35,819 nucleotides of DNA from a virus. Position numbers and translations under genes: made by a program. This document shows positions 824 through 17,153 of the stretch, in pieces. The stretch is from the IMG/VR virus record IMGVR_UViG_3300024062_000027, positions 1-35,819 of that record; one strand, given 5' to 3'. Each line of letters begins with the position of its first letter. Position 1 is the first letter of the stretch. The notes beneath the pieces were generated by a model that searched no databases, was not told where the DNA came from, and was given only the letters and a program-made list of their open reading frames with translations.

Positions 824-2686
824 ATGGAGATATCAAATAAAATATTATCTGACATAACAGTTTATATGAAATATGCAAAATACATCCCTAAATTAAACCG
901 TAGGGAGACATGGGACGAACTAGTAACACGTAACATGAATATGCATATCAAAAAATATCCTGATCTCACAGAAGACATTAAAACAACGTATAAATTAGTA
1001 TATGAAAAAAAGATTCTACCGTCTATGCGCTCACTTCAATTCGGAGGCAAACCGATTGAAATATCACCTAATCGTGTCTATAATTGCGCTTATCTACCTA
1101 TCGATCATATTGAGTCGTTTAATGAGGTAATGTTCTTACTTCTTGGTGGAACAGGTGTAGGTTATTCAGTACAAGAACATCATGTAGCTAAATTAGAACC
1201 TGTTAATAAGCCTTATGACAAGAGAACTAGAAGGTTTTTAATAGGTGATTCAATTGAAGGTTGGGCTGATGCTATTAAAGTTCTAATGAAATCATATCTT
1301 GGTGAAAAAAGAAGTTCACGTGTAGAGTTTGACTACTCTGATATACGCCCTAAGGGTGCAATGTTAGTAACGTCTGGTGGTAAAGCACCAGGACCTCAAC
1401 CACTTAAAGAATGTATAGTAAAGATAACAGGAGTTTTAGACTCAAAGGAGGATGGCGATATGCTCTCCACTATAGAAGTACACGATATAGTTTGCCATAT
1501 TGCAGACGCCGTCTTAGCTGGTGGAATACGTCGAGCAGCTTTGATAAGTCTGTTCTCAGCGGACGACGAGGAGATGATCTCTTGCAAGTCTGGAAACTGG
1601 TGGGAAACAAACCCACAAAGAGGTAGAGCTAATAACTCTGCTGTTCTTATGAGACATAAAATAACTAAAGAGTTTTTTATGGATATATGGAAACGTGTAG
1701 AACTATCAGGAGCAGGTGAACCTGGTATATACTTAAACAATGATAAAGACTGGGGTACAAACCCTTGTTGCGAAATAGCTTTACGCCCATATCAGTTTTG
1801 TAACTTATGTGAAGTAAATGCTAGTGATATTGAATCACAAGAAGATTTAAACAACAGAGTGAAAGCAGCTGCGTTCATAGGGACATTACAAGCTGGATAT
1901 ACGGACTTTCACTATTTAAGAGACGTATGGAAAGAAACAACAGAAAAAGATGCGTTGATCGGAGTGTCGATGACGGGGATAGGATCTGGCACGGTGTTAG
2001 GATACGACATGCAAAAAGCGGCTCAAGCAGTAAAAAGAGAAAACACAAGAGTAGCGAAGATGATTGGGATTAATCCTGCAGCACGATGCACAACCGTGAA
2101 GCCTGCTGGGACAACATCTCTGGCATTAGGAACTTCATCTGGTATTCATGCATGGCACAATGATTATTATGTCCGTAGAATTAGGGTTGGTAAAAACGAA
2201 AGTATATATAAGTACTTAGTAGATAACCACCCGTTACTTGTTGAAGATGAGTATTTCAGACCTCATGACACTGCTGTTATTAGTATACCTCAGAAAGCTC
2301 CGGCTGGATCTATACTAAGAACCGAATCACCTTTTCAATTACTTGAACGTATAAAAAAAGTAGCTCAAGAATGGGTTACACCTGGTCATAGAAAAGGATC
2401 TAACACTCACAATGTTTCTGCTACTGTTAGTTTAAAAGCTGAAGAGTGGGAAGATGCAGGAGAGTGGATGTGGACAAACAGAGAACATTACAATGGTTTA
2501 TCTGTATTACCTTATGACGGTGGAACTTATACACAAGCTCCTTTCGAGGATATTGATGAAGGAACTTATATAAATAAGTTACAACACTTAACTGATATAA
2601 ATTTAGAAAATGTTATCGAGACTGAAGACAACACAGATCTTAGTGGTGAGCTTGCTTGCGCTGGTGGCGCTTGTGAAATTACCTAG
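824..2686 (+). CDS. nrdJ: adenosylcobalamin-dependent (class II) ribonucleoside-triphosphate reductase
   Basis: It makes deoxynucleotides from ribonucleotides by a B12-generated thiyl radical and would supply phage DNA synthesis. The residues match monomeric RTPR of Lactobacillus leichmannii. NPCCE (residues 313-317) corresponds to the N-P-C-x-E active site, with C315 as the radical cysteine and E317 as the acid. C88 (VYNCAY) and C326, exactly 11 residues after C315, are the disulfide pair. C612 and C617 form the C-terminal CX4C shuttle that reloads electrons. GGTGVGYSVQ (108-117) and PAGTTSLALGTSSGIHAWH are further family signatures. At 620 aa it is shorter than the 739-aa Lactobacillus enzyme, and no N-terminal ATP cone is apparent. 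No separate small subunit is needed. The 3' end overlaps the next gene by 77 bases. Confidence 0.93.
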   Translation: MEISNKILSDITVYMKYAKYIPKLNRRETWDELVTRNMNMHIKKYPDLTEDIKTTYKLVYEKKILPSMRSLQFGGKPIEISPNRVYNCAYLPIDHIESFNEVMFLLLGGTGVGYSVQEHHVAKLEPVNKPYDKRTRRFLIGDSIEGWADAIKVLMKSYLGEKRSSRVEFDYSDIRPKGAMLVTSGGKAPGPQPLKECIVKITGVLDSKEDGDMLSTIEVHDIVCHIADAVLAGGIRRAALISLFSADDEEMISCKSGNWWETNPQRGRANNSAVLMRHKITKEFFMDIWKRVELSGAGEPGIYLNNDKDWGTNPCCEIALRPYQFCNLCEVNASDIESQEDLNNRVKAAAFIGTLQAGYTDFHYLRDVWKETTEKDALIGVSMTGIGSGTVLGYDMQKAAQAVKRENTRVAKMIGINPAARCTTVKPAGTTSLALGTSSGIHAWHNDYYVRRIRVGKNESIYKYLVDNHPLLVEDEYFRPHDTAVISIPQKAPAGSILRTESPFQLLERIKKVAQEWVTPGHRKGSNTHNVSATVSLKAEEWEDAGEWMWTNREHYNGLSVLPYDGGTYTQAPFEDIDEGTYINKLQHLTDINLENVIETEDNTDLSGELACAGGACEIT

Positions 2687-3185
2687 TTGTAAGAAAGTAA
2701 CAGACAATTATAAAACATTTACTATACGAGAGGGAAAACATAGGTCGACAAATGCCTTGAACTATAGTAAGGATACGGTGTTCGGTTGGGACATTGAATT
2801 TGATTCAAGTGCTATCTACAAAACTGTGGATAGCCTTAATCAATTAGATATTAATAAATTAATAGGATGGAGCGATTGTTCAAGTAGCCATACAGAGAAT
2901 TCTATAAGGTTTGGCTGGCGATGGTTAAACGATAGTTTAGAAATACACTGGTTTAAACATGAGCATGGAGAGTTTAGCTTTGATCTTATAAAAAGAGTTA
3001 GTATATGTGAAGAACATTACTACGAAATGACTATATCCACTTGGGACTATAAGTTATCTGTAGATGGTACTTACGTGCATGTACCTAAAAATTGTCCTAA
3101 TGAATATAGGCGATATCAGCTCTACCCATATTTCGGTGGAGATGAGACAGCACCTCATGATATAACAATTAAAATTAAGAAATAA
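2610..3185 (+). CDS. predicted lipoprotein of unknown function
   Basis: The product has a lipoprotein-type signal peptide: a basic start (MLSRLK), a hydrophobic core (ILVVSLLALVALV) and a lipobox-like LPSC with C27 as the modified cysteine. The mature part (about 165 aa) is rich in aromatic and beta-prone residues and ends with YPYFGGDETAPHDITIKIKK. That ending recalls beta-sandwich proteins I associate with Bacteroidota, but I cannot name a family. The first 77 bases overlap nrdJ in another frame. No ATG lies between the nrdJ stop and the lipobox; GTG codons at about 2643-2648 are alternatives but would shorten the signal peptide. It overlaps the following membrane-protein gene by one base (TAATG), so the two are probably translated together. 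Such a pair could alter the host envelope, for example in superinfection exclusion; this is inference only. Confidence 0.65.
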   Translation: MLSRLKTTQILVVSLLALVALVKLPSCKKVTDNYKTFTIREGKHRSTNALNYSKDTVFGWDIEFDSSAIYKTVDSLNQLDINKLIGWSDCSSSHTENSIRFGWRWLNDSLEIHWFKHEHGEFSFDLIKRVSICEEHYYEMTISTWDYKLSVDGTYVHVPKNCPNEYRRYQLYPYFGGDETAPHDITIKIKK

Positions 3186-3424
3186 TGGATTTTATTAAAT
3201 GGCTTTTTACAAATCATTACTTCAATAACAAGCAAGGTATTATAAAATTTTTAGGAACTATAATGTTTGTTTGTTTTGGGGTTTATGTACCTGGACCAGT
3301 ACTAGAAGAATACTACGGCGGATGGATACCTATTTGGCCGGTATTAGGCTGCTTTATAGCGATATACGGAGGTTTGATAGGTATAATATATCAACCTTAT
3401 CAAATATATAAAAGAGTTAAATAA
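3185..3424 (+). CDS. small two-helix inner-membrane protein
   Basis: This 79-aa product has two predicted membrane segments, about residues 19-40 (GIIKFLGTIMFVCFGVYVPG) and 48-70 (IPIWPVLGCFIAIYGGLIGI). They are separated by a short acidic, glycine-rich loop (EEYYGGW) and followed by a basic tail (YKRVK). It starts on the stop codon of the lipoprotein gene and is the last gene before the terminator. Size and topology fit a class II-like holin, but there is no endolysin nearby and its partner is a lipoprotein. An envelope-modifying or exclusion role is just as likely. No family recognised. Confidence 0.65.
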   Translation: MDFIKWLFTNHYFNNKQGIIKFLGTIMFVCFGVYVPGPVLEEYYGGWIPIWPVLGCFIAIYGGLIGIIYQPYQIYKRVK

Positions 3425-3461: not shown

Positions 3462-3498
3462 AGGAACTTTGGGTATGGTGCCCAGTTTTTTTGTTCCT
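3462..3498 (+). terminator. second + strand terminator-like hairpin
   Basis: TGGGT and GCCCA (3470-3484) form a short stem with a 5-base loop, followed by GTTTTTTT. An outer pair, AGGAAC (3462-3467) and GTTCCT (3493-3498), encloses stem and T run and reaches into the stop codon of the converging gene. The T run follows only in the + direction, so this would be a backup terminator for the left unit. Confidence 0.5.
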
Positions 3499-3763
3499 AA
3501 TTAAATCTACTACAACACCAGCGTTTTCTAGCTGCTTTACCTCTTTCTCCATCCCAGCTCTTAGATCTACTACAAAAAGCTTTCTGTCTTTTGTAGGCTT
3601 TTGTACCTTCTTTTGTATCGCATTTCGTAACAGCTGTTTGAAGTTTACTGCCTGGATTTTGAGACCTATATTTCTTAACTCCAGCAGTAGTCATACCCGC
3701 ACCATCTTTAGTTTTTCTAAAGTTAGGTTTTGGTCCTCTAGTACTTCTACTTAGCTTACTCAT
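3497..3763 (-). CDS. small basic cysteine-containing phage protein (DUF6321-like)
   Basis: This 88-aa, strongly basic product has the pattern GMTTAGVKKYRSQNPGSKLQ, then KRQKAFCSRSKSW, then ARKRWCC. That resembles the DUF6321 family of short phage proteins (GLTAxGRxxYN, RRKSFCARM and KW-C motifs). The family assignment is from memory. Function is unknown; the charge suggests nucleic-acid binding or packaging with DNA. It is the last gene of the morphogenesis unit, and its ATG overlaps the stop of the preceding 44-codon gene (ATGA). Confidence 0.75.
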   Translation of the reverse strand: MSKLSRSTRGPKPNFRKTKDGAGMTTAGVKKYRSQNPGSKLQTAVTKCDTKEGTKAYKRQKAFCSRSKSWDGERGKAARKRWCCSRFN

Positions 3764-3899: not shown

Positions 3900-6800
3900 T
3901 TATTGAAATTGATCTGTATAATTTATATCATTTGCTAAAGAATCTACTTGTCCAGGCTGTTTTGCTAACTCTAATAATCTAGCAACTCTATCCGCTTCGT
4001 ATTTTAAACTTTTTATTTCTTGAGAACTTAATCCATAATTTTTTAAATGCCTTATTTGAGTGGCTTTAATCATTGATTTAAGTTTAGCAGGACTATCTAA
4101 AGCTTGATCTTTATCCGTGTTTTTTGCTTTATAATATATCTTTTTATCTTCGTCTTTAGGGAAATACTGCTTATCTTTTTCTTCTTGTATCTTTTTTATT
4201 TCCTCAACTCTCATATCACTGTTTTTAAGTTTTTTAATCTCATCATCAGTATAACCAAATTGACTTAATATAGACTTTTGTTCCCACGCGCCAAACTTAC
4301 TTGGATCATCTCTATATCCTTGCTTAACATCTGCTTCAGTACGAAGTTGCCATTCTGGCCATCCTAAAACCATTGCTACAGATTTCCATGTTTCAGTATC
4401 TTCTTGCATTGCTGCTTTCAAGTTATTAACTTTATTATATAATCTATCAAGAGGAACATTAGTAACTCCACTTATAACTTTAGCTACAGATTCATACGCG
4501 GGATTATCTAAACTAAATCCTTTTTCAAACACTTCTGCTCTACGTTTTTTGCTATCAAATGGATATGCAGCTCCTCTAAATCTAGATAACTTACTTTTAA
4601 TAGCCGGAGAGAATTCTAATAACTTAATCCAAGCATCTCCATATTCTGGCCTATCTCTTTCTGATCTATTATAAATGTCCATGCCTAAGTTTTTAAGAAC
4701 TTGCAGTGTTACTCCAGCCATACCTAAACCTCTTAATTGAGAATCAACCATACCGCTAATAGTATTAGTTATTTTCTTTTCTTCTTCTTCACCTATGTCT
4801 CCATCTCCAAAACCCATTGCAAACAGTCCTTGTTGTAAAGAGTTAAATATAACGTTTTGTAAAAACCCATAATAAGCTATTTTACTTAAGTTTTCTCTAT
4901 TGCTGCCTCTTCCATTAGCGATGTCTTGTATAGCTCTTTTCTGTATACGAGCATATTGCATTGGAGTATTAGCAAATGAAAGCACAACCCTACCTAAGTC
5001 ACTAGCTTGTTGAGAAGATATCTTACTTGGATCTGATGACTGTTGAGATTTTTCAGATGCTTGTATAAATTCTTCCATAGCTTTTTTCTTAGCATCTACT
5101 TCACTCATACCGTTCTTAACTAAATCATTCACCCTGTTTCTATAAAACATTGCTCCACCAGAAGCTATAGCAAAACTATCTGCAAATTTAGTAGGAGCAT
5201 AACCTTTTTCAAGTATATAAGATACAGCAGCTTTAGCTTTATTAGTACCAGTTGCAGCTGCGTCAGCTATTTCTGATTCACTTATGTTTAATTTAAGACC
5301 ATTTCTTCTATCTTTCAAATAGTCTGAGTTAATTAATTCTACAAAATCTTTCCAATATTGAGGTTGATTTGCAAAAGCTTTACCCATTTTAAGTGGATTA
5401 TTAAAAGTCCAGTTAGTAAAGTTAGCAGCAGATATGGTTTGTAGCACTGCTGATCTAGCGTTTAAGAACATTACAACACCAGTACTATTATTCACGTAGT
5501 CTAAAACCCTGTTGCTAAGTCTATTTCCTCCATTCGTTCTATTACTACCACTCTCCATTCTGTTTAAAGAGTTTTCTAAAGCTTCTCTATATTTTTTTCC
5601 AAACGCAGCTTCAAGCTTGTTAAGGTTTTCTTTAGAAAAAATAACATTCTTATTTTCCTTCCACTGCTCTAAATATTTAGCTCTTTTAGTTTTATTTAAT
5701 AGAGATATCAAATCAGTAGTGATTGTACCAGCATTCCAACTAGAGCTTGGAGTAGAGTAACCATCACCTTTTGTAAGTGTTAGTATTTGCTCAGCAAAAG
5801 CTTTAAGTTTAGGATTGTTTTCTACTATATCATTTAATTCTTTAAAGTCTGTTTTAGATATTCCAGGAATTTCTTTACCAGTTTTAGACCATAAGAAAAC
5901 TCTCACAGCTTGTTCATTAGTGAAACCTGAATCTGTTTTCTTTTTTAATTCTTTAGGAACATCTAGTTGTTTCTTTAACTCTTTAAAATCAGACATTAAA
6001 TTAACCCTGTCTTTAGATAAGTTTTCTTGAGCTCTTGTATAAGGATCTAAAAGATTTTCTTTATAGAATTCCATAGCTGCTTCTCCTTTTTTACCTTTAC
6101 CTAAAGTTCTATATAGTAAACCATTAAAATCTTCAGCAGATGGTGGTATAAAGAATTTTTGACGTCTAGCTTTATCTCCTCTAATTTCTGCTTTAATGTC
6201 AGAGAATATCTTCTCTTTACCTATTCCAGTAGAATTTTCTAATATCTCATTAAATCTTTCATTCATTTTATTGCTAGCATTCATTCTAGCTATTTGAGTT
6301 TGAGATTTAACATCTATAACTTCTAATGCATCTCTTACAGCTTTAACATTAGCAGTGTGATCATCAGCAAAGTAAAAGTCATTATAACCTTCAGAAGCTT
6401 TTTCAACTACCCAGTCTGACTTAGCAAAAGGAGAACTATCACCTAATCCTTTTATATTTTCAATAGGTATATCTAATCCCATTTCTTTTAAGAATTCATG
6501 AATAGCTTTAGCTGACTCTTGAGATCTTGCTGTTAATACAAACATGTCTCTTTCACCTGCAGCCTCTTTCATTTTCTTCATAACATCAAACAAAGGACCT
6601 TTTTTACCATCAACTACTTTGTTAAAATCTGAAAAATCCATATCCCAGCCTTCTGACTTAAGCTTCTCTCCTTGTTTAGCAAACTCTTCAGCTGTTAACA
6701 CTTTTCTTTTACCTTCTTTAGTAGCGAATACCTTACTTTTAGTTCTAGCTATAGTATCATCAAAGTCAAATACTCTAGCTTTTTTAATTGGTTTGTTAAT

Positions 6801-9800
6801 TTTATTAGCTAATCTTATCGCTTTATCTCTTTTGTTAAGCTCTTCTCTTACTTTTTCCGGAGATTTATTACTAGCAGACATACTAGCTTCTTTAGCAACT
6901 TCAATGTTTTGCTTTTGGACTTTAGCTTTTTCAGGTGCAAATTCTATAGCTTGTTTAGCTTCAACGGTTTCCACTGTGGGTTTCATTTTACTAAGAACTT
7001 CTAATGCTCTTTTTTTGCCCATATCCCTAAGAGCAACTTCTCCCATAGTTTTACCAGCATCTTTTCCTTTCATTATTATCTGATCAAAAGCTCTCTCTGG
7101 GATTACAAGAGTATTAGCTCTGTCAGAAGAAGATGTTCTTATGGTTTTTCCAGTAGCATCTTTATCACCTTGAAGTCTTTTGTCAATTAAATACTGCCCA
7201 CCAGTACGAGTCATCTTTTTATAATTTAAGTTCTTTTGAGCTTGACTTAAACTTTTATCAGCGTACGTAGCAAAAAACTCTTTAGACTCGTTTAGACGCT
7301 CTTTGACATGTTCATTATGAGACTCTACATTTTCCTCTTTTGTTCCTTGCTTTCTAGGATCTTTCTCTAATCTTTTAGATATAGACTCATAAGAAGTAGC
7401 TCCTCTTGGAATACCAGTACTAGAATTTGTTTGCAATCTTTCTATAACTAATGCAGCGTTAGGATTCATCTTATCAACTCTAGAGAAATACCAATCTTTT
7501 AAGTTTGTATTATGCTTAGATGTTAATTCATAAGCTTCTTGATGAGTCATTTCTCCTTCTTTAACTTTAGCTAATAAATCTTTACCAATTAATAACTCAT
7601 AATGCCTATTCATCCATTCAGTTGGATTTGTTTTATAATCAACTTCTCTATTTATTTTAGCTGAACTTTTTTTAAACGCACCTGGCTCAGGTAGTTTAGC
7701 ATATTTAACTTTTTCTACAAATTTTTCAGTTTTTGCTTTATCACCTTTTGCTAATTCAGGAACTTCAAATAATTTTTCTAAATAATTACCCGCTCCTTTA
7801 TAGCCTTTTTCTGTAGCACCTTTACCTGTAATATTTTTAGGATTAGCTCTAGTTCCATCTGAAAACCTTAAAGTAGTATTAGCCGTCAAACTAGACTGTA
7901 TAGCTCTTTCAATATTAGTAGGAAGATATTCAAAATCTATATCTTTTAACAAGGTCTCAACAGCGTCTTGCATTTTTGGTAAATGCTCTTCAGTTAATAT
8001 ATTTTTTTCTATACTAGGAAAATATTCTACATCAAGTCCAGATTTATTAAGTGCTGAAACCACATCTTTAAAGTTCTTTTCTGTTTTATTATATATATCT
8101 TTTGCTTCTTTAAAAGTTACATCAACACCATCTTCAATTTTTACTTGTTCTCTAAGATCTTCTATTATTTGTTTTTCAGTAGCTGCAGATCTTTCTTCTT
8201 CTAGTTTTATAGTCTCTTTATCTGTAAACTCAGCAGCTTTTTTATATTCTTCATTATAATGTTTAATTAACTCTGCTTGGATAGCTATATCTTTAGTAGC
8301 AAATTTTACAGCTGCTTCAAGTTCTGGTGCTCCCATAACTTTTTTCCTGTTTAAGTATTTACCAAGTCTTTCTATTATTATAGGATCAAACTTATTACTA
8401 GCCGCAAAATTTTCTACTACTTTGTTACTAGCTGAAAATTTACTAGATCCTTTATATAATTCCTGTATAGCTTTGTCAAGATTTTGCTGTATGTCTTTGT
8501 CTCCTATCTCTTGCTTTAACTCTTGCAGCGCTTCTCTTTGTATCTTGCCTTCAACCATTCTAATATAGTTTCTAGCAAGTGCAGTGTTTAATGTAGATTG
8601 ATTTCTTAAAGCATCTTTCTCCTTTTTAGTCTTAGCTTCGTTTTTACCTTTAAACTCTTTAGGATTAACTATACCTGCTTTATCTCTAAACGATTTAGCG
8701 TCAAAGTTTTTAGCTGTCTGAACATAAGGTTGACTACCTTTACCCATAGATCTTATATCAGTTTTATCATATAGCTTTTTTACAATAGATTTATCTATAT
8801 TTAAAGAAGTACCTTGCTTGCTTTGATCGCCAGTTCTTTGTCCATCTTGAGCACGCATCATTTCTTTTCTTTTCTGTAAAGTTTTTCTATCTTTTTCAGA
8901 ACCTGATTTTTTGTACTTTGCTTCTAGTTCAGCTATATCTCCTGCTACAATGTCTTTAGGTTGAAGTTGAGTAGTGTTTAAAAGTCTGGAGTATTCTTCA
9001 GATATATCATACAGCTTTTTATTTAAGTTATAAGCTTCACTACCTTGCTCACTTCTCATACCATCCTTAATCTTTATATCACCTTTGGTAGTATTTTTAG
9101 AATCAAGTGGATTTTTACCTGCTAATGTAGATTCACTTATGCCGAAAAACTCTGCAGCTTCTTTTGGAGACATGATCTTATTATCTGCGTAATCTAATTT
9201 ATCTAATTTTTCTAAGTCTATAGTTTTTTCTCCAGTTGCTTTATCTACTTTTACTATATCTTTTAATAGTTGATCTTTAACTGACGTATTGTATTTCTCT
9301 ACAGTCTTAGGATCCATTACTCTTCTAGGGTCTATACCTTTTGTAGCGGCTTTATCAGTAGATTCAGGTGTCGATGTTGATCTATCTACTTGTCTTTCCA
9401 TTACGGTCTTTACACCTTCTTGATTTTCACTAAGAGTCTTAGTTTTCTTTTCTGTTCTTTTTATATTATCTCCTGCTCTCCAATCTAGTTTTTTACCTAT
9501 GTATCCAGCTAAACTAAAAGATCCTTCAGTCTTTTTAACTTCAGGATTAAAAGCTTTAACTGTATTAAACAGTTCTGTCATAGCTGTTTCTGAAGCTGTA
9601 TCTTCAGGGTTTTCAACACCTTTTCTTCTATTTATATTAATTAAATCAGGTACGAAGCTGTAAGCCATTTTAAGAACTTCACCTGGATTTTCTTCCGTCC
9701 ATTTGTCCCAAGCTTCTTTAGATGTAGCATGCTCTTTTTCAATTCTACCTATAGTTTCATTTCTCTTCTTTTGATGCTCTTTTAATCGGACTTCATTTTC

Positions 9801-12800
9801 AGCAATTTTATTAGATTTATTTAAACTAACACTTGTTCCGTATTCTTCATTTAATTTATTAAGCTTATCTATACTTTCTTTTAATACTTCACTTTTAACT
9901 TTAGAAGATCTTGTTCCACCTCTTAATACAAAATCTACATATTCTTTAGGATTAGAAGAAAGCTCTAGACTAGTAACTTCTTTTATTTCTCTCTCAGTAC
10001 CTTTAACACCTTCAAATGCTTTTTGCTCTGCTAATTGAACAAACTCAGCTAAAAACTCTTTTTCTACGTTTATATCTCTAGCACCGTTGTTTTTTACGTT
10101 TTCTTTATATTCTCTATAAGCTTTAACTTTTTCCATTTCAGCTTCAACCTTTTCATAAGCGCCTGTTCCTCTTCTTTTAAGCTCTGATTTAACATTGTCT
10201 ATGTAATCAAGCTTTTCTTGTGTGGCGATTTCTTTGGCTTTTTCGCTACTTATATTTGGTTGTTCTGCACTTATTTCACTAGCTCTCTTGTTAATAGCCG
10301 CTTCACCTACCATGGCTTCTTGAGTTCCATGGCCTAAAATCTCGTGAGCTTCTAAACCTGTTTCTCTAACTTCTCTAGCTATATCTTTGTTAAATATAGC
10401 AATTGATTTACCTTTGTTAGGATTAGGTATAGTAGAAGAACCTGTCTCTGGATCAATTATTCTAACTCTAGTGTCCACTCCAAACAAACCAGATTCAGTA
10501 CCTACAAAAGTTCCCTCAGGAAACTGCTCTTGAAACTTATTAATCTCTGATTGATTACCTTCAAAAACTTCAAGTCCAGCTTCTTTAGCCATTTCAATAG
10601 TTCTTGGAGCTTCTTCTTTTAAAGCTCTTTCATATTCTTGTAAAGAAAGTTTTTCATTTAAACCTTCAATTACGTCTCTTTCTTTTTCAATAAACTCAAT
10701 TTGTTTTTCAGCATCTACTTTGTCGATTCCTGTTAACTTTTTTTCATTAATCTGCTTTTGTATATTGAATATTTCTCCATTCATGACTAGTACTTGAGAG
10801 TAGTTATTCATGAATGCCATTCCTTCTGCAGATGACAATCTTTTATTATTGTTGCTAAACTTATCTCTAGCTCTATTTACAACCTTATTAGACAAATCAG
10901 TTACGCCTTGGGCTTGTTTTTCGCTATAACCCAAAAGCATTATCTCATATTTAGGTACTAGATTTCCATTTGTTGCACCCGCATCAGCAAAGTTTAGAAA
11001 ATCTATCCCATCTAGTTCATTACCTTTTTCAAAAGATTTAATTGAAGACTGAAGACGTTCTCCTACTTCAAATAAAGGATCGTTTTTGTAATTATTGTCA
11101 ATATATTTTTTCTGTTTTAAGTCTAGATCTTTGTAACTTTTATCGTATACGCTAATAGCAACTTGTTCTTTAACGTTTTCAGGTTGCCAAGACTTTGACA
11201 ACTCTGTAAAAGATTTTTTTGTTTTTAATTTATTTCCTAATCTATAATAATGGCGCACCTGATTAGGTTTGTCAGCGGTAGGAATGCTAGGATCGTTTTT
11301 TATTTCTTTTATTTTTGCTCTAACAGCTTTATCAACATCAGCATCTACATGATATTCATCACCTTTAACTTTTTTTAGACCTATTTCTCTATAAGCAGAG
11401 TTCCAAGCTGGATTATCTCCATTAATTCTATCTACTTCTCTTTTAAATGTTTCAACAGATTTTTTAATTCCTTGAGAAGGATGAGACAATTGCATAGCTA
11501 ACATAGCTCCATAAGTTTCCATTAAAGCTTCACCATCTGTTAACTCATGAAAAATAGAAGCCATAGACTTTCCAGCTATTATATTTTCAATTGCTCCTTC
11601 AGCCTGTAATAAAGATGCAGCAGTCATAGGTTGCGCTACACCAAACTTAAATAATCCAGTTGTTGTTTCTATTCCTGGAGTTTTATTCATCCACTTTAAG
11701 GTTTTAAACAAACCTTTACTTCCATTTTTATATTGTGTCTTAGCTGTATTGTATATAGCTTTATTCATTTTGTCACCTACTTTAGTGACTCCAGCTCTAC
11801 CTGCTCCTAACGTCATTGCTAGTCTTAAGTTATGACCAGCGCCCATTGCTTCTTTGTCAAATACTTGTTCGTCCATTAAGCTAGCTCCTTCTAAAGCGTA
11901 GAATTCAGCACCAACACCCGCTGTGTATCTTGTTAAAGAACTAGCAACAGTAGGATTCATACCAAGTTTAACAGCACCACCAAATGCTTTGCCCATGATA
12001 AATCTAGACATATTAGCAACATTGCCTGCTCCACCAGTCAGTAAAAAAGTAGCTGCCATTTCTAAACCCATTCTACTTAAATCTCCTACTTGTCCTCCAC
12101 TTCGTTCCCAACTATCTACAGCTTCATTCATTTGAAACTTTTCTTTATCAGTAAGTTCAATACCTTCAGCTTGCATCTCTTCATACATTCTTCTTCTAGC
12201 TTCATTAGGGCTAATATTCTCCATGTCAAAAGCTGGTGCAAAAGAATAATAAGCCGCACCTCCAAACCCGTCTCTTTCTGTAGACGTCATGTCTACGTTT
12301 AAAACTTTAGCTAGTCCTAATACAGTTCTATCTTCAACAGCATTGTTCCAAGCTTTAACAAGAGGAGATTCACTATTAGGAATTGTAGTTAGTTTTAATG
12401 GTAACTCACCAGTGTTTGCAATTTCTTGCATTCTGGCTATATCAGCTGATAAAGCTTGATCAGAACCAACTGCGTCACCTACTATATTGTAAAACTTTTG
12501 AGCACTACTTCCTTCAAACAACCATTCTGCCTGCCTGTTATTTAATTGTTTTGCTAAATATATTAATTCAGAGTTATTAGAATGAATTCTTCTATTCAAA
12601 AAATCTTGACTGACAAATTTATATTCATCAACCTTGTTTTTCATATAATTTGATTCAGATCTTATTGCTGCATCACCTTCACTATAATGAACATTAGGAG
12701 TATTACCTTCAATATCTTTATATATATCAAATTCTCCATTGTCTAATAAATTAGAAACTGTTGATACATATCTATTTTCTAGTATTTCATCTTCTTTAGT

Positions 12801-14480
12801 TTTTGGAAACTTCTCTTTAGCTATTGCTTCAGCTTCCTCTTTAGTCTTACCTTCTTTTAAGCTTTCAATAAAAGAAGCTTGTCTATTATTAGCTAATTCT
12901 TCTGACCTTGATTGAAAACTAGTTCCAAGTTCTGCAAGTTTCTTTCTATCCTCCTCAGGTATACCTTCGTTGTAAGCGTTATCTATAAGTATGTCTACAT
13001 TCTTAGCGTTCTGAGCTTGTTCAATATTATAGCTAGCTAAATCTGCAACAGCATCAGTAGATGCTTCAGGACCTAATTCAATAGCTGCTTTTTTGTAACT
13101 TATATTGTATTCTTCTGTATCAATTTTTTTTACTTCTCTTTCTTCAATCTTGCTAGAAACCTCTAATCCAACAGGGTCGTTAGAAAACCATGTTCTTAAA
13201 TCTTCTTTTAAAGATTGCATTCTTTCACTAGCTAAAGAAGCATAAAGTGTTCTTATTTGATCTATCTCATATTCAGTTTTAGGTGTGTCACCAAACTCAA
13301 GTTCATCAAAAGCTTTTTTAGCAAGTTGATATTGTTCTTCGCCTGCGTAAGTAGGCAATCCTAATCGGTAATAATTATCTATTAAATCATCTTTAGCATA
13401 CATGTCATTTATCATGCCCGATCTTATAAACTGCTCTTGAAACTGCGCTTCACTAGCGTCTACCATTCCACCAGTCGCTTCACCTATACTCTTGAGCAAA
13501 AGTCCATCAAATGGGTTTACTACAACTTCTTCGTCTTCTACAATGGCGTCTATAGTATTACTTATTTTTTGAGATTCATCGTTTTCTAAGCCCATTAAAT
13601 TAGCTTGAAACCTTAAAGCACCTTGTATATATTCGTCTTCTTGTACTATACCTTGAACCGCTTCTTCTAAAGTTTCATATTTACCTGTAAAAAGTTCTTT
13701 TTTTGCTTTTTCAATTAAATATCCTTTTGCTTCTACTTCGACTTCTTCACCGTTTCTATTAGTGGTTTTAACTTTTATTGGGTTTACCATTCCACTATCG
13801 GATGTGAATCTTCTATCTTTTTCTACGTCTACTATATTACCTTCTTCGTCTACTTCTTTTTTTGTTACAACTTTTTTATCTTTTCCTGGCTGCGAGTCTA
13901 CATTTACTAAATCAATAAGAGTATTGTAAGATTTTCTACCTCCTTTAGCATGCTTTGCGTCTACCTTGTCTTGATCAACACTTTTACCGTAGTTGTTACT
14001 GTATTTAGTTCTATTGTAATCTGTATTAAGAGGTAAATAAGTGTATTCTTTTGTAACATTGTCATACACTTGCACTTGATCTAACCTTGCTTGATCCTCG
14101 TTGAATTCAAACCTAGTGCTACCATCTTCTGTTTTTATGTTATCATACTTGACTCTCAACATAGGAACTAATTCTTCCTCTGATACATTATCAAATTCTT
14201 CAAAAGAAATATTTTCAGAAGTATCAACAATTTGATCTTCTTCTTCTAATGCTTCTTGTGTTTCTTTCTGCAGAGCTCTATTTTCATGATTTAACACAAG
14301 ACTTCCAGGGATAAAAGCAGATTCTTCTTCTACTACTTCTTCTTCACCTTCTGCTACTTCGTCAGCAAACTGAGTTGTATAATCAACTTCATCTTCTGCT
14401 ACTTCATCTTCTGCTACTTCTGCTACTTCGTCATCAGCAAATTGAGCTGTATAGTCTATGATTTCGTCTTCGTCTTCCAT
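3900..14480 (-). CDS. giant polyvalent virion protein (T7 gp16 position): zincin-like, sigma-like and HAD domains
   Basis: The product is about 3526 aa. I chose the ATG at 14480 (MEDEDEII), 14 bases after the previous stop; an upstream ATG at 14543 would add 21 residues and overlap that gene by 49 bases. In order: acidic N-terminus with DYTxQFAD/DEVAE repeats (9-40); long helical region; glycine-rich hydrophobic stretch (804-990); HEILGH (1379-1384) with EFLAE (1475-1479), a zincin-like pattern; sigma-70 region 2-like segment (1596-1675) and helix-turn-helix-like stretch from 1770 (MSPKEAAEFFGISESTLAG); HAD phosphatase (DFDDT 2572-2576, LTARS 2649-2653, DD 2706-2707); FFIPPSAEDF helical region; conserved C-terminal module (about 2995-3220: MFLNARSAVLQT, ADSFAIASGGAMFYRNR, FANTPMQYAR) that I associate with large marine-phage proteins. 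Its position after gp14- and gp15-like genes suggests a packaged, ejected protein; enzymatic activities are untested inference. Confidence 0.85.
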   Translation of the reverse strand: MEDEDEIIDYTAQFADDEVAEVAEDEVAEDEVDYTTQFADEVAEGEEEVVEEESAFIPGSLVLNHENRALQKETQEALEEEDQIVDTSENISFEEFDNVSEEELVPMLRVKYDNIKTEDGSTRFEFNEDQARLDQVQVYDNVTKEYTYLPLNTDYNRTKYSNNYGKSVDQDKVDAKHAKGGRKSYNTLIDLVNVDSQPGKDKKVVTKKEVDEEGNIVDVEKDRRFTSDSGMVNPIKVKTTNRNGEEVEVEAKGYLIEKAKKELFTGKYETLEEAVQGIVQEDEYIQGALRFQANLMGLENDESQKISNTIDAIVEDEEVVVNPFDGLLLKSIGEATGGMVDASEAQFQEQFIRSGMINDMYAKDDLIDNYYRLGLPTYAGEEQYQLAKKAFDELEFGDTPKTEYEIDQIRTLYASLASERMQSLKEDLRTWFSNDPVGLEVSSKIEEREVKKIDTEEYNISYKKAAIELGPEASTDAVADLASYNIEQAQNAKNVDILIDNAYNEGIPEEDRKKLAELGTSFQSRSEELANNRQASFIESLKEGKTKEEAEAIAKEKFPKTKEDEILENRYVSTVSNLLDNGEFDIYKDIEGNTPNVHYSEGDAAIRSESNYMKNKVDEYKFVSQDFLNRRIHSNNSELIYLAKQLNNRQAEWLFEGSSAQKFYNIVGDAVGSDQALSADIARMQEIANTGELPLKLTTIPNSESPLVKAWNNAVEDRTVLGLAKVLNVDMTSTERDGFGGAAYYSFAPAFDMENISPNEARRRMYEEMQAEGIELTDKEKFQMNEAVDSWERSGGQVGDLSRMGLEMAATFLLTGGAGNVANMSRFIMGKAFGGAVKLGMNPTVASSLTRYTAGVGAEFYALEGASLMDEQVFDKEAMGAGHNLRLAMTLGAGRAGVTKVGDKMNKAIYNTAKTQYKNGSKGLFKTLKWMNKTPGIETTTGLFKFGVAQPMTAASLLQAEGAIENIIAGKSMASIFHELTDGEALMETYGAMLAMQLSHPSQGIKKSVETFKREVDRINGDNPAWNSAYREIGLKKVKGDEYHVDADVDKAVRAKIKEIKNDPSIPTADKPNQVRHYYRLGNKLKTKKSFTELSKSWQPENVKEQVAISVYDKSYKDLDLKQKKYIDNNYKNDPLFEVGERLQSSIKSFEKGNELDGIDFLNFADAGATNGNLVPKYEIMLLGYSEKQAQGVTDLSNKVVNRARDKFSNNNKRLSSAEGMAFMNNYSQVLVMNGEIFNIQKQINEKKLTGIDKVDAEKQIEFIEKERDVIEGLNEKLSLQEYERALKEEAPRTIEMAKEAGLEVFEGNQSEINKFQEQFPEGTFVGTESGLFGVDTRVRIIDPETGSSTIPNPNKGKSIAIFNKDIAREVRETGLEAHEILGHGTQEAMVGEAAINKRASEISAEQPNISSEKAKEIATQEKLDYIDNVKSELKRRGTGAYEKVEAEMEKVKAYREYKENVKNNGARDINVEKEFLAEFVQLAEQKAFEGVKGTEREIKEVTSLELSSNPKEYVDFVLRGGTRSSKVKSEVLKESIDKLNKLNEEYGTSVSLNKSNKIAENEVRLKEHQKKRNETIGRIEKEHATSKEAWDKWTEENPGEVLKMAYSFVPDLININRRKGVENPEDTASETAMTELFNTVKAFNPEVKKTEGSFSLAGYIGKKLDWRAGDNIKRTEKKTKTLSENQEGVKTVMERQVDRSTSTPESTDKAATKGIDPRRVMDPKTVEKYNTSVKDQLLKDIVKVDKATGEKTIDLEKLDKLDYADNKIMSPKEAAEFFGISESTLAGKNPLDSKNTTKGDIKIKDGMRSEQGSEAYNLNKKLYDISEEYSRLLNTTQLQPKDIVAGDIAELEAKYKKSGSEKDRKTLQKRKEMMRAQDGQRTGDQSKQGTSLNIDKSIVKKLYDKTDIRSMGKGSQPYVQTAKNFDAKSFRDKAGIVNPKEFKGKNEAKTKKEKDALRNQSTLNTALARNYIRMVEGKIQREALQELKQEIGDKDIQQNLDKAIQELYKGSSKFSASNKVVENFAASNKFDPIIIERLGKYLNRKKVMGAPELEAAVKFATKDIAIQAELIKHYNEEYKKAAEFTDKETIKLEEERSAATEKQIIEDLREQVKIEDGVDVTFKEAKDIYNKTEKNFKDVVSALNKSGLDVEYFPSIEKNILTEEHLPKMQDAVETLLKDIDFEYLPTNIERAIQSSLTANTTLRFSDGTRANPKNITGKGATEKGYKGAGNYLEKLFEVPELAKGDKAKTEKFVEKVKYAKLPEPGAFKKSSAKINREVDYKTNPTEWMNRHYELLIGKDLLAKVKEGEMTHQEAYELTSKHNTNLKDWYFSRVDKMNPNAALVIERLQTNSSTGIPRGATSYESISKRLEKDPRKQGTKEENVESHNEHVKERLNESKEFFATYADKSLSQAQKNLNYKKMTRTGGQYLIDKRLQGDKDATGKTIRTSSSDRANTLVIPERAFDQIIMKGKDAGKTMGEVALRDMGKKRALEVLSKMKPTVETVEAKQAIEFAPEKAKVQKQNIEVAKEASMSASNKSPEKVREELNKRDKAIRLANKINKPIKKARVFDFDDTIARTKSKVFATKEGKRKVLTAEEFAKQGEKLKSEGWDMDFSDFNKVVDGKKGPLFDVMKKMKEAAGERDMFVLTARSQESAKAIHEFLKEMGLDIPIENIKGLGDSSPFAKSDWVVEKASEGYNDFYFADDHTANVKAVRDALEVIDVKSQTQIARMNASNKMNERFNEILENSTGIGKEKIFSDIKAEIRGDKARRQKFFIPPSAEDFNGLLYRTLGKGKKGEAAMEFYKENLLDPYTRAQENLSKDRVNLMSDFKELKKQLDVPKELKKKTDSGFTNEQAVRVFLWSKTGKEIPGISKTDFKELNDIVENNPKLKAFAEQILTLTKGDGYSTPSSSWNAGTITTDLISLLNKTKRAKYLEQWKENKNVIFSKENLNKLEAAFGKKYREALENSLNRMESGSNRTNGGNRLSNRVLDYVNNSTGVVMFLNARSAVLQTISAANFTNWTFNNPLKMGKAFANQPQYWKDFVELINSDYLKDRRNGLKLNISESEIADAAATGTNKAKAAVSYILEKGYAPTKFADSFAIASGGAMFYRNRVNDLVKNGMSEVDAKKKAMEEFIQASEKSQQSSDPSKISSQQASDLGRVVLSFANTPMQYARIQKRAIQDIANGRGSNRENLSKIAYYGFLQNVIFNSLQQGLFAMGFGDGDIGEEEEKKITNTISGMVDSQLRGLGMAGVTLQVLKNLGMDIYNRSERDRPEYGDAWIKLLEFSPAIKSKLSRFRGAAYPFDSKKRRAEVFEKGFSLDNPAYESVAKVISGVTNVPLDRLYNKVNNLKAAMQEDTETWKSVAMVLGWPEWQLRTEADVKQGYRDDPSKFGAWEQKSILSQFGYTDDEIKKLKNSDMRVEEIKKIQEEKDKQYFPKDEDKKIYYKAKNTDKDQALDSPAKLKSMIKATQIRHLKNYGLSSQEIKSLKYEADRVARLLELAKQPGQVDSLANDINYTDQFQ
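14361..14456 (-). repeat. acidic peptide repeat at the N-terminus of the giant protein
   Basis: The coding sequence contains an imperfect duplication: DYTAQFADDEVAE, then further DEVAE copies, then DYTTQFADEVAE (residues 9-42). At DNA level it appears as repeated cttctgctacttc-type units. It probably arose by slippage in low-complexity coding DNA and gives a very acidic, disordered leader. Confidence 0.7.
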
Positions 14481-14494
14481 ATTGAATAAAAATT

Positions 14495-16006
14495 TTAAGC
14501 TGGGATAAAATCTCCTTGACCATTTTTCGCTGTTGGATCCCATTTCACTGTGACTACATTTCCTGCTTTTGTAACAACCTTAAATGGTGGTCCTTCTTTA
14601 GTTGGGTCAGTAGGTTTTTGGGCATTTAGTGCAGCATTATCATTTCCGTCTACAGCATTTGGATTAGCTTTAAAAGCATCAGTTCTTTTTATTTCAACTT
14701 TCTCTTTTGGAGTTTTAGCTGTATTCGCGTTTTGCTGTTGCAGTCTTCTTTGATTTGCAGTTAGTTGATCACCACCTATTGTTTGACTTTTCTTAATCAT
14801 GTCGTTTACATAGCTAGGTAATATACCACTGCTAGGATCATATGTATGATAAAACTTTTCTGCTAAACTTTTTTGTGCTTCATTTCCAGGTTGCCAAGCT
14901 CCCATAAGAGCATTAGCCTCAGCTCCAGTAAATTCATCTTTACTTATTAATCCATCTCCATTTTCATCTGTAACTCCAGAATCCATTAACATTTGTGCAA
15001 AAGGATTAGGTTCATCTCCATAACTTTCACTAGCATTAGTAGCCATTCTATCTACAATGTTAGTCCAATTTTTAGACATACCAGAATTGTCGCTTATAAT
15101 ACCACTAACATCCATTTGAGCTATATCGTTTTTAAAGTTTGTAAAAACTTCATTAAAATCTTTATAAGTATTAACATCGTTTAGATTTGTCATATCTTTA
15201 AACGCACTAAAATCTGGAGCGTAAACTTCGTATCTTTCAGACTGCATTTGATCTCTTGCCGGTGCGCCATCTCCATAAGTCATAATACCTATTTCACCAG
15301 ACTCTACACCTCTAACAAATTCCCCACCATCTCTAGTTTGTGCTGGCTCATCTTCATAAACAATGTTACCTTCGCTATCTTTCTCAGGAGTTCCATCAGC
15401 GTTTAACTTAGCGTTGTAAGTTTTATTCATTATCTTACCAGCTTTAGAATCCCATTCAGGAACTTGCTTAACAAAAGGTTTGAATAAACCTGTAGTTTCT
15501 TGATCTGTTCTAGGGTCTAAAGCTCCAGGCTTGCCTTCTTCAATAGATAGAGACGTCTGCACTTGGTCATTTACAGCTGCAAAAGCACCTTGCATTTGAG
15601 AGGTTGTCTTAACGCCTTTCATTAATTTATTCTTTTGCTCTGAAGCTCTCTTTATATCTTCTTCATATTCTCCTTCTATAGGATCTCCATTTTCATCTAA
15701 TTTAGGAACTTTATTTTGAAGTAAGTTATAATACTCATCCCGCATCTTACCCATCATTTCTTTGGTAGCATCATTGTATCCACTCTCTGGCTCATAAGAA
15801 TCTTGTAATTCTTGAAACTGAGCAGATCCCATGTCTAGCTTTTGTTGGTTTTGACTTAACCAACTTAAGTTAGCAGCTTGATTATCTCTTCGCCTATCAT
15901 TTAACCTATCAAACTCATAATTAGTTTGCTTTTGTAGTCTTTGAGTTTCTTGATTTAAGCTCTCTAAAGATTTATTTATAGTTGTTCTTTCCGATGTATA
16001 CCCCAT
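14495..16006 (-). CDS. putative internal virion protein (gp15 position) with an EF-hand-like loop
   Basis: A 503-aa hydrophilic protein without signal peptide or membrane segment. Residues 1-60 are coiled-coil-like and Asn/Gln/Arg-rich (SLESLNQETQRLQKQ). The middle is acidic. Residues 347-358 (DENGDGLISKDE) match a canonical EF-hand calcium loop, with Asp at 1, Asn at 3, Asp at 5, Gly at 6, Ile at 8 and Glu at 12. The C-terminus is a disordered NxNA/KTPKEK region and a small beta-like end (FKVVTKAGNVVTVKW). It lies between the gp14-like and giant genes, the place of gp15 in T7-type podoviruses, where internal proteins form the ejection channel. Sequence similarity to gp15 is not evident; the assignment is positional. 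Confidence 0.7.
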   Translation of the reverse strand: MGYTSERTTINKSLESLNQETQRLQKQTNYEFDRLNDRRRDNQAANLSWLSQNQQKLDMGSAQFQELQDSYEPESGYNDATKEMMGKMRDEYYNLLQNKVPKLDENGDPIEGEYEEDIKRASEQKNKLMKGVKTTSQMQGAFAAVNDQVQTSLSIEEGKPGALDPRTDQETTGLFKPFVKQVPEWDSKAGKIMNKTYNAKLNADGTPEKDSEGNIVYEDEPAQTRDGGEFVRGVESGEIGIMTYGDGAPARDQMQSERYEVYAPDFSAFKDMTNLNDVNTYKDFNEVFTNFKNDIAQMDVSGIISDNSGMSKNWTNIVDRMATNASESYGDEPNPFAQMLMDSGVTDENGDGLISKDEFTGAEANALMGAWQPGNEAQKSLAEKFYHTYDPSSGILPSYVNDMIKKSQTIGGDQLTANQRRLQQQNANTAKTPKEKVEIKRTDAFKANPNAVDGNDNAALNAQKPTDPTKEGPPFKVVTKAGNVVTVKWDPTAKNGQGDFIPA

Positions 16007-16015
16007 AACTTAAGC

Positions 16016-16738
16016 TTATTTTTTTGCCCCCATTAGTGCCTGAATTTTTGATAACATATCGAAGTCTAAATCTGGATTTTTAGCCATAAAGTCATCTAAC
16101 ATAGCTTGATTACTATCAGTGTCCATTCCTTCTGCTATATTTCCAAATCCACTAACAGCACTACTAGCTATATTACCAAACGCTGCCATTTTTTGAGCTT
16201 CGGCATTATACTCTTGAGCTTCAAATTTATCAATCTTATTTTGAGCTCTATCTAATTGCTGCATGTCTCTATTTTCTTGCTCTTCCCAAGCCCATTTATT
16301 ACCTTGTGCTTTTTGCTCATTTATTTTCATTTGGGTTGAAGCAACGTTTTTAGCGTTTTTAAGCTCTTGTTTTTGAATATCTACAGATATACCTTGTTTT
16401 GATTTTAAAGCCGCTTGAGCTAATGCTGTAGCACCACCTGAACCAGCACCTGTCTGCATTATAGTGTCTAAAGTGTTTGCTAAAGCCATATCTGCTTCTT
16501 CCGCTTGAATCTTTGTGGCTTGTGTAGCTACTCCAATTTTTTCAGCTTCGTTAGTTAATCCCTGCATAGGGTTTGAAATAGATTGTCTATTGGCTTCTAA
16601 CTGCTTCATTAAAGCTTGTTGCTCTTCTTTTTTTAATTGAAATTCTTTTTGTTGTTCGCTAGCTTTTACCGCTGTATAAACACCCATACCTGCGCCTACT
16701 AAAGAACCACCGGCCGCTGCTGCTGTTGACTTTCCCAT
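16016..16738 (-). CDS. putative internal virion protein (gp14-like)
   Basis: This 240-aa product opens with a small-residue hydrophobic segment (AAAAGGSLVGAGMGVYTAV, about residues 5-23) that could insert in a membrane. A long Gln/Lys/Glu/Ala-rich helical region follows (EQQKEFQLKKEEQQALMKQL and on), with a second small-residue patch (FGNIASSAVSGFGNIAEG). This layout matches T7 gp14-type internal proteins, which leave the virion and form the outer-membrane part of the ejection conduit. It is one base from the GNAT-like gene's stop and 9 bases from the next gene. The role rests on composition and gene order, not on a recognised motif. Confidence 0.7.
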   Translation of the reverse strand: MGKSTAAAAGGSLVGAGMGVYTAVKASEQQKEFQLKKEEQQALMKQLEANRQSISNPMQGLTNEAEKIGVATQATKIQAEEADMALANTLDTIMQTGAGSGGATALAQAALKSKQGISVDIQKQELKNAKNVASTQMKINEQKAQGNKWAWEEQENRDMQQLDRAQNKIDKFEAQEYNAEAQKMAAFGNIASSAVSGFGNIAEGMDTDSNQAMLDDFMAKNPDLDFDMLSKIQALMGAKK

Positions 16739-16739
16739 A

Positions 16740-17153
16740 TTATATTGTTTTTGTTATTAAACTATAACCACCATCTCCCTCTATAAAATCCATATCTTTT
16801 AGCTTATTTATATATTTTTTGTTATCACCGAAAAATTGTAAATACTTATACCCATGAGCTTTACAGACGTTTTCAACTCCTTTTATTAACAACTCTATAG
16901 CTTGTTCTTTATCTTTTTCTTTATAACTTTTATCTGACAATGGCCATTCAAATATAGCTACTTTAGAATTAGTAGTATAAATAAATGTAGAAACGACTGG
17001 CTTGTCATTTTTTTCAACAATTAATCCGCTTGTACCGTTGTCAGGTAAAAAATCTTTATTTGGTAAATCTTTAAATCCCCAATCTTTCCACCATGTTTCA
17101 AAAGTTTTCCAATCGCTTTCGTTTATTCTTCTTATATTAAATTTCATTTTCAT
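16740..17153 (-). CDS. GNAT-like acetyltransferase-fold protein in the tail/internal-protein block
   Basis: I chose the ATG at 17153, which makes a four-base ATGA overlap with the preceding tail gene and gives 137 aa; an ATG at 17171 would add six residues. The order of elements is that of small GNAT proteins: IRRINESDWKTFETWW (beta 1-alpha 1), SGLIVEKNDKPVVSTFIY (beta 2-3), an AIFEWPLSD strand, EKDKEQAIELLIKGVENVC in the place of the acetyl-CoA pyrophosphate loop and helix, then YKYLQFFGDNKKYINKLKDMDF. A clear Q/RxxGxG/A loop is missing, so catalysis is doubtful. I recall close relatives in marine phages next to structural genes, and T7 gp13 is a GNAT-like protein at the same relative position. 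Probably a virion-assembly factor. Confidence 0.75.
   Translation of the reverse strand: MKMKFNIRRINESDWKTFETWWKDWGFKDLPNKDFLPDNGTSGLIVEKNDKPVVSTFIYTTNSKVAIFEWPLSDKSYKEKDKEQAIELLIKGVENVCKAHGYKYLQFFGDNKKYINKLKDMDFIEGDGGYSLITKTI

Follow-up and report, generated by a model that had tools for sequence, protein, structure and literature searches.

Polyvalent proteins of phages were surveyed in 2017 by Iyer et al., who proposed that they undergo autoproteolysis by zincin metallopeptidase domains and described a HExxxH variant of the zincin motif (PMC5512222). One of these proteins, DdrB of phage P1, possesses a zincin and is processed before packaging (PMC5512222). Here we describe a giant protein of 3547 amino acids (aa) encoded on the IMG/VR viral contig IMGVR_UViG_3300024062_000027, the whole 35,819 nt of which are referred to below as the window. 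A sequence-only reading of the window had proposed that this protein is a multi-effector cargo delivered with the DNA; our data partly support this idea, which is already known as that of polyvalent proteins (PMC5512222). Each giant of this type carries its own short motif (xSNK in the window protein) at four joints between its modules, matching within a protein and differing between proteins. We lean, by a small measure, towards the view that the giant is the ejection (cargo) protein of a flavobacterial podophage, and a polyvalent polyprotein that is cut by its own zincin at its own motifs.

Giant proteins with their own motifs at the joints

The giant open reading frame (ORF), its modules and the candidate processing sites at their joints are as follows, pLDDT denoting the confidence of the structure prediction:

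3900..14543, minus strand: giant ORF, 3547 aa, ATG start, one uninterrupted frame with no internal stop
10857..14543, minus strand: variable N-terminal region, aa 1-1229, alignable in only 0-5 of 73 relatives
10044..10571, minus strand: zincin-like metallopeptidase domain, HExxxH variant, aa ~1325-1500, recognized by invariant ligands and predicted secondary structure
10329..10346, minus strand: HEILGH zinc-binding motif, aa 1400-1405
9804..9830, minus strand: candidate site S1, aa 1572-1580 (VSLNKSNKI), a linker with pLDDT <50, its segment being enriched in two independent sets
9414..9812, minus strand: likely sigma-70 region-2-like domain, aa ~1578-1710, beginning at S1 and suggested by pattern, profile and predicted structure
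9123..9173, minus strand: weak helix-turn-helix, aa ~1791-1807 (HTH_17, E 0.13, below cut-off), possibly region-4-like
8391..8444, minus strand: candidate site S2, aa 2034-2051, tandem SKFSASNK/ENFAASNK, pLDDT <50, enriched in both sets
6888..8390, minus strand: S2-S3 module, aa 2052-2552, with an EH pair nearly invariant in relatives and a sequence link to few relatives only
6864..6887, minus strand: candidate site S3, aa 2553-2560 (ASMSASNK), matching the S4 motif
6294..6794, minus strand: HAD phosphatase, Pnkp-3'-phosphatase-like, aa 2584-2750, recognized by PHROG match, fold match and invariant catalytic residues
6267..6290, minus strand: candidate site S4, aa 2752-2759 (ARMNASNK), in a predicted helix
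3903..6266, minus strand: C-terminal core, aa 2760-3547, mostly helical, the shared trunk of the family, present in nearly all 73 relatives

The tripeptide SNK occurs in the giant at aa 1577, 2039, 2049, 2558 and 2757, plus aa 1218, where 1.7 copies are expected in all, and the first five of these stand just after the zincin, after the sigma-like module (two copies), before the HAD phosphatase and after it. The motif at these joints is a different one in other giants, examples being ASKDL, found five times in the relative L131 (aa 1182, 1576, 2107, 2305 and 2475), RFAL (aa 1720, 2131 and 2841) and RLAL (aa 2627) in L152, and AKDI in L111. ASNK as a family-wide motif was rejected, being specific to the window protein.

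Across 61 giants, S3 was found to be more like the S4 of its own protein than like that of others (17.0 versus 14.0; 0/20000 permutations), and the same was seen with 20 representatives of less than 65% identity (1/20000). Shifted control segments were mostly null, with one beside S3 (+30) reaching 6/2000 in the full set. The match was replicated at the same settings in a held-out set of 76 giants, 62 of which entered the pair test (18/20000). Likewise, the segments at S1 and S2 were richer in their own protein's S3/S4 motif than its other segments were (p = 4e-4 and 2e-9), as they also were in the held-out set (p = 5e-3 and 4e-8), and three control segments were null in this test; the p-values of all of these S1 to S4 comparisons treat related proteins partly as independent, and are strong but not exact. 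Once core and HAD similarity is controlled for, giants with similar zincins tend to have similar S4 motifs (partial r = 0.20, p < 0.0005), the corresponding value for S3 being r = 0.10 (p = 0.012). In the relatives L089 and L140, whose cores are 81% identical and whose zincins are 12% identical, the motifs differ.

The remaining SNK, at aa 1218 (window ~10890), lies upstream of the zincin; relatives lend it no support and control segment C was not enriched. It is possibly a site that frees the protease from the N-terminal part.

Zincin and sigma-like modules

The metallopeptidase-like motif that had been noticed from the sequence holds up well, as HEILGH and a downstream Glu ligand are invariant in 64 relatives: H1400, E1401, H1405 and E1496 are the only invariant columns of an alignment of 64 sequences with a mean identity of 12%. 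The predicted structure of this region comprises strands, a HExxxH helix and a Glu helix. In the first set of 75 proteins only one is without HE(xx|xxx)H, which is nearly always present as a single copy; it occurs exactly once in 72 of the 76 held-out proteins, where composition predicts 0.02 per protein; it also stands at a regular distance before the HAD. The zincin call is based on this conservation together with structure prediction, with no match in Pfam, and a Foldseek search of the combined zincin and sigma model against the PDB returned no significant match. Scans found no close relatives of the window protein's own zincin or sigma segment, and phmmer linked neither among the relatives; judged by sequence, the window protein is divergent in both. 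A further observation concerns the relative L085 (the giant of MW202828, 3859 aa), in which two HEFGH motifs (aa 1615 and 2500) possibly mark two zincins.

Behind the protease, a sigma-like block was found by pattern in 43 of 75 proteins, mostly at +205 to +290 from HExxH, and by profile in 32 of the 76 held-out proteins, all 31 measurable ones having it at +145 to +265. A search of the block's profile against 177,635 PDB sequences gave 7 matches at E<=10, all 7 of which are sigma factors; with the held-out profile the top match was again a sigma factor, and 4 of its 6 matches were not. The predicted model of the window's own aa 1578-1699 aligns to SigA, sigma-S, sigma-32 and sigma-70 (Z 5-6.7), and Pfam Sigma70_r2 matched 3 of 25 relatives (best 2e-4). 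Each of these lines is weak alone, and combined they make aa ~1578-1700 likely to be a domain of the sigma-70 region-2 type. The transcription-factor-like segment of the sequence-only reading is supported as a likely module: profile, model and position point to this fold, and in the window protein itself the scores stay below family cut-offs.

A HAD phosphatase with a possible insertion hotspot

The claim of a phosphatase domain was confirmed by fold match and by invariant catalytic motifs. The HAD module shows DFDDT at aa 2593 and matches PHROG 415 (polynucleotide kinase) with an E of 4e-7, and its best PDB structure match is the 3'-phosphatase of T4 Pnkp (5uj0_B; Z 11.2, root-mean-square deviation 2.5 Å over 120 aa), followed by Pnkp1 of an RNA-repair complex. 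HAD motifs I-IV are all present, and none of the catalytic residues D2593/D2595, T2671, K2708 and D2727/D2728 varies among 56 sequences. The domain most likely acts on nucleic-acid 3' ends.

In three relatives (L112, L125 and L136) a P-loop kinase of the zeta-toxin/PNK type (AAA_33) is inserted in the HAD cap, between the first two catalytic motifs, and in L094 an ART-PolyVal-like domain, below cut-off, occupies the same spot after DFDDT. This spot therefore receives polyvalent effectors. The interval between HAD motifs I and II thus appears from these sequences to be an effector insertion hotspot, and the kinase-bearing relatives to be nested bifunctional kinase-phosphatases.

A conserved trunk with variable cargo

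Searches of IMG/VR recovered 267 relatives of the giant with one query and 325 with another, on marine viral contigs, and relatives in the same family span 2240-3697 aa; in the collection of isolated phages searched, none matched either half of the giant by tblastn. The HAD and C-terminal core (aa ~2573-3400) are common to nearly all of 73 aligned relatives, with 44-73% identity and a mean column identity of 51% (56-sequence alignment), whereas aa 1-2500 are BLAST-alignable in only a handful of the 73. The family is a conserved C-terminal trunk joined to highly variable N-terminal cargo. The model of the core gave fold matches to parts of many giant phage proteins, several of them named for polyvalent domains. 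The variable region, aa 1-1229, begins with acidic repeats, and at aa ~820-1000 it is rich in Gly/Ala and weakly hydrophobic, as marked by hydropathy peaks. Scans of the whole giant found no Pfam domain, and with Pfam, NCBIfam and PHROG together the only meaningful match was PHROG 415 at the HAD. Pfam searches of 52 middle and 36 N-terminal segments gave nothing recurrent beyond the traces of Sigma70_r2.

Gene neighbourhood and host

The giant ORF occupies 30% of the window, just as had been claimed of a single polypeptide of about 3.5 thousand residues; the earlier coordinates, 3900-14480, describe a real ORF and end 63 bases short of its start codon at 14543. It is the final gene of a virion cassette that further includes the terminase and portal genes, a scaffold-like gene and the genes of the capsid and tail region, and two genes precede it directly:

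14495..16006, minus strand: 503-aa protein overlapping the start of the giant, in a T7 gp15-like position; order kept in relatives
16016..16738, minus strand: 240-aa Gly/Ala-rich protein, in a T7 gp14-like position; order kept in relatives

Reference phages of the group show a protein of ~200-300 aa, one of ~450-650 aa and then a giant of 1691 to 3859 aa, and the same pair precedes the giant in most relatives, in agreement with the gp16-like position assigned to it previously. The capsid protein shares 49% identity with an uncultured podovirus, 45% with Maribacter phage Panino, 42% with Elemovirus (Flavobacterium) and 37% with Cellulophaga phi38:1. The host of the virus is most likely a flavobacterium, since isolates of the group infect Flavobacteriia and some relative-bearing contigs from metagenome-assembled genomes are labelled Flavobacteriaceae or Flavobacteriales; other host labels also occur on such contigs and are probably binning errors.

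Elsewhere in the window, structural proteins of 1798 aa (19136-24532, minus) and 650 aa (17150-19102, minus) match different parts of PHROG 14478 (1474 positions), so that what is a single virion protein in other phages may here be two separate ones. A small, possibly GNAT-like gene (16740-17171, minus) separates the tail-region gene from those of the internal proteins, and MW202828 has an annotated acetyltransferase at the same place. A B12-dependent (class II) ribonucleotide reductase (824-2686, plus) is encoded on the strand opposite the virion genes, a DUF1064 protein similar to phage endonuclease I (2-496, plus) is found at the contig end, and a small, very basic, Cys-containing protein of 88 aa (3497-3763, minus) lies immediately downstream of the giant.

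Proposed mechanism and rival explanations

We propose that the conserved core (aa 2760-3547) would anchor the giant in the virion, the remainder being exchangeable cargo, and that the giant would be packaged in the particle and injected with the DNA. The zincin (aa ~1325-1500) would cut its own chain at xSNK, namely at S1 (~1577), S2 (~2038/2048), S3 (~2557) and S4 (~2756), to yield a protease-bearing N-terminal part of ~1577 aa, a sigma-region-2-like product of ~460 aa, a protein of ~510 aa, a Pnkp-like phosphatase of ~200 aa and the core of ~790 aa. After injection, the sigma-like part might direct the host's RNA polymerase towards early promoters of the phage, and 3'-phosphate ends left by host nucleases might be healed by the phosphatase. 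We infer cutting by the zincin because the motifs match within a protein, differ between proteins, track the zincin and replicate in held-out genomes. The earlier suggestion that every module could have a host target of its own needs revision: the zincin more likely serves to process the chain in which it lies than to attack the host, and the probable substrate of the phosphatase was given above. A bolder version, in which the protease and the motifs that it cleaves evolve together and take on a new specificity in each phage within a self-processing injected polyprotein, so releasing exchangeable effectors that include an injected sigma-like factor seizing the host RNA polymerase, is put forward only tentatively.

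Several points weigh against self-processing. The packaging, injection and cutting of the giant (and by whom), as well as the targets of its modules, rest on inference rather than experiment; we found no virion proteomics of a phage with the HAD and core family in the literature, and Elemovirus gp18 and phi38:1 gp101, found at the same position, are called 'structural protein' in GenBank by annotation only. The held-out pair test loses strength when confined to distant representatives (760/20000 at <70% identity; 251/20000), in many giants no S3/S4 match stands out (within-protein median rank 0.14), and the combined S3xS4 score tracks the core at least as well as the zincin. By count alone the ASNK repeats are not significant, given that 205 of 1000 shuffles of the window protein contain some 4-mer four times. 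A second structural comparison of the zincin and sigma model with the PDB returned sigma rows and no zincin rows. In addition, S4 lies within a confidently predicted helix that joins HAD and core, a poor spot for cleavage unless unfolded. This last point would suit a polyvalent ejection protein that stays uncut, its zincin being an anti-host effector or inactive and its motifs linkers or docking segments of similar composition. The uncut reading is also favoured by the HExxxH variant, which may bend the active-site helix (PMC5512222), and by the precedent of the N4 virion RNA polymerase, which has a C-terminal HExxH domain (in C1; PMC12633501) and yet is packaged intact and unprocessed according to Iyer et al. 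(PMC5512222). However, an uncut protein does not readily explain why the motifs match within and not between proteins, why many giants have them at the same four joints while controls are mostly null, or why S4 tracks the zincin, and we regard it as rather unlikely.

The motifs might instead be cut during head maturation by some other protease, either a phage prohead protease encoded elsewhere in the genome or one of the host. Prohead proteases process internal head proteins in T4 and phiKZ, and as the window is a fragment, further proteases may be out of view; but a shared prohead protease would hold many virion proteins to one slow-changing motif, and giants whose cores are very similar (the L089 and L140 pair) have different motifs, which makes this explanation improbable. 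More improbable still is that the motifs are DNA-level recombination joints for module swapping and not protein signals. Modules are clearly exchanged, but codons agree at 44 of 84 matching motif residues where codon usage alone predicts 47.5, so that the match appears to be kept at the protein level, and DNA-level repeats were rejected as its source. A separate doubt, compatible with self-processing in other respects, is whether the sigma-like block is a generic helical bundle, in which case the phage would inject no sigma-like factor. Per sequence the sigma call is weak (no Pfam match in the window protein, best profile E 0.06), and Z values of 5-6.7 are common in helical regions, as helical folds readily yield middling scores. 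Against this, the PDB matches of the profile were sigma factors without exception, a sigma factor also headed those of the held-out profile, and the position of the block is fixed behind the protease; a generic bundle is therefore somewhat unlikely. That the three motif regions consist of coiled coil alone is excluded for two of them, the HAD on account of its model and the fold search, the zincin on account of its invariant ligands, and is made unlikely for the sigma segment.

Implications

The sigma-2 and Pnkp-like phosphatase modules and the self-specific joint motifs look new. This is provisional because the open-access literature that we searched, in which nothing closer on polyvalent proteins with cleavage sites was found, is an incomplete sample. 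The candidate cleavage sites can be read from sequence, are phage-specific and are directly testable, and the earlier survey proposing autoproteolysis gave none. If our proposal is correct, these sites define the ends of injected-effector fragments in several hundred marine viral contigs, and offer a rule by which further giant proteins of phages could be divided into functional units. Injection of a sigma-like domain would then be another solution to start-up transcription for phages without a virion polymerase, and a sigma-based parallel to the polymerases that N4 and crAss-like phages inject. The predicted Pnkp-like phosphatase suggests that damage done by the host to nucleic acids at entry is repaired.

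Comparison with known systems

Like T7 gp14-gp15-gp16, the giant and its two neighbours are encoded by three adjacent genes that follow the tail genes, in the same order and with the same trend in size; no sequence relation to the T7 proteins is shown, Pfam found no lytic transglycosylase domain (as in T7 gp16) in the giant, and we do not claim membership. Elemovirus gp18, the MW202828 giant and phi38:1 gp101 lie at the same position after the same virion genes, and the first two have a zincin motif, but all three are without a HAD motif or detectable sequence homology to the window's C-terminal core, and phi38:1 gp101 is half the giant's size. The N4 virion RNA polymerase gp50 (PMC12633501) resembles the giant in its ~3500 aa, its HExxH domain and a large helical C-terminal part. 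It is ejected, whereas ejection of the giant is suggested by gene order; the giant has a sigma-like module instead of a polymerase (no T7-type RNA polymerase domain was found by Pfam or NCBIfam) and is predicted to be cut, whereas gp50 is reported intact. T4 Pnkp has the same HAD fold and catalytic motifs, and some relatives add a P-loop kinase as well; in the giant, however, the HAD is embedded, and in the three kinase-bearing relatives the kinase sits inside the HAD cap and is not N-terminal.

P1 DdrB, of the darA operon, shares a zincin with the giant and differs in its other domains, and its cleavage sites are not reported in PMC5512222. The text of that survey contains neither the word sigma nor the word phosphatase, whereas the giant has a phosphatase and a likely sigma-like module, and the survey describes no self-specific cleavage motifs, a word search having found no cleavage-site analysis in it. 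Pfam detected no polyvalent-associated domain (LPD, ART-PolyVal and others) in the giant itself. With polyvalent proteins (PMC5512222) the giant nonetheless shares multiple domains of disparate activities, a zincin hub, predicted injection and proposed autoproteolysis, to which are added the fold matches of its core to polyvalent-named proteins and the ART-PolyVal-like insert of L094. Several disparate domains in one large chain and a zincin with a downstream Glu are both found in the giant, and it fits best as a phage polyvalent protein in the sense of Iyer et al. (PMC5512222).
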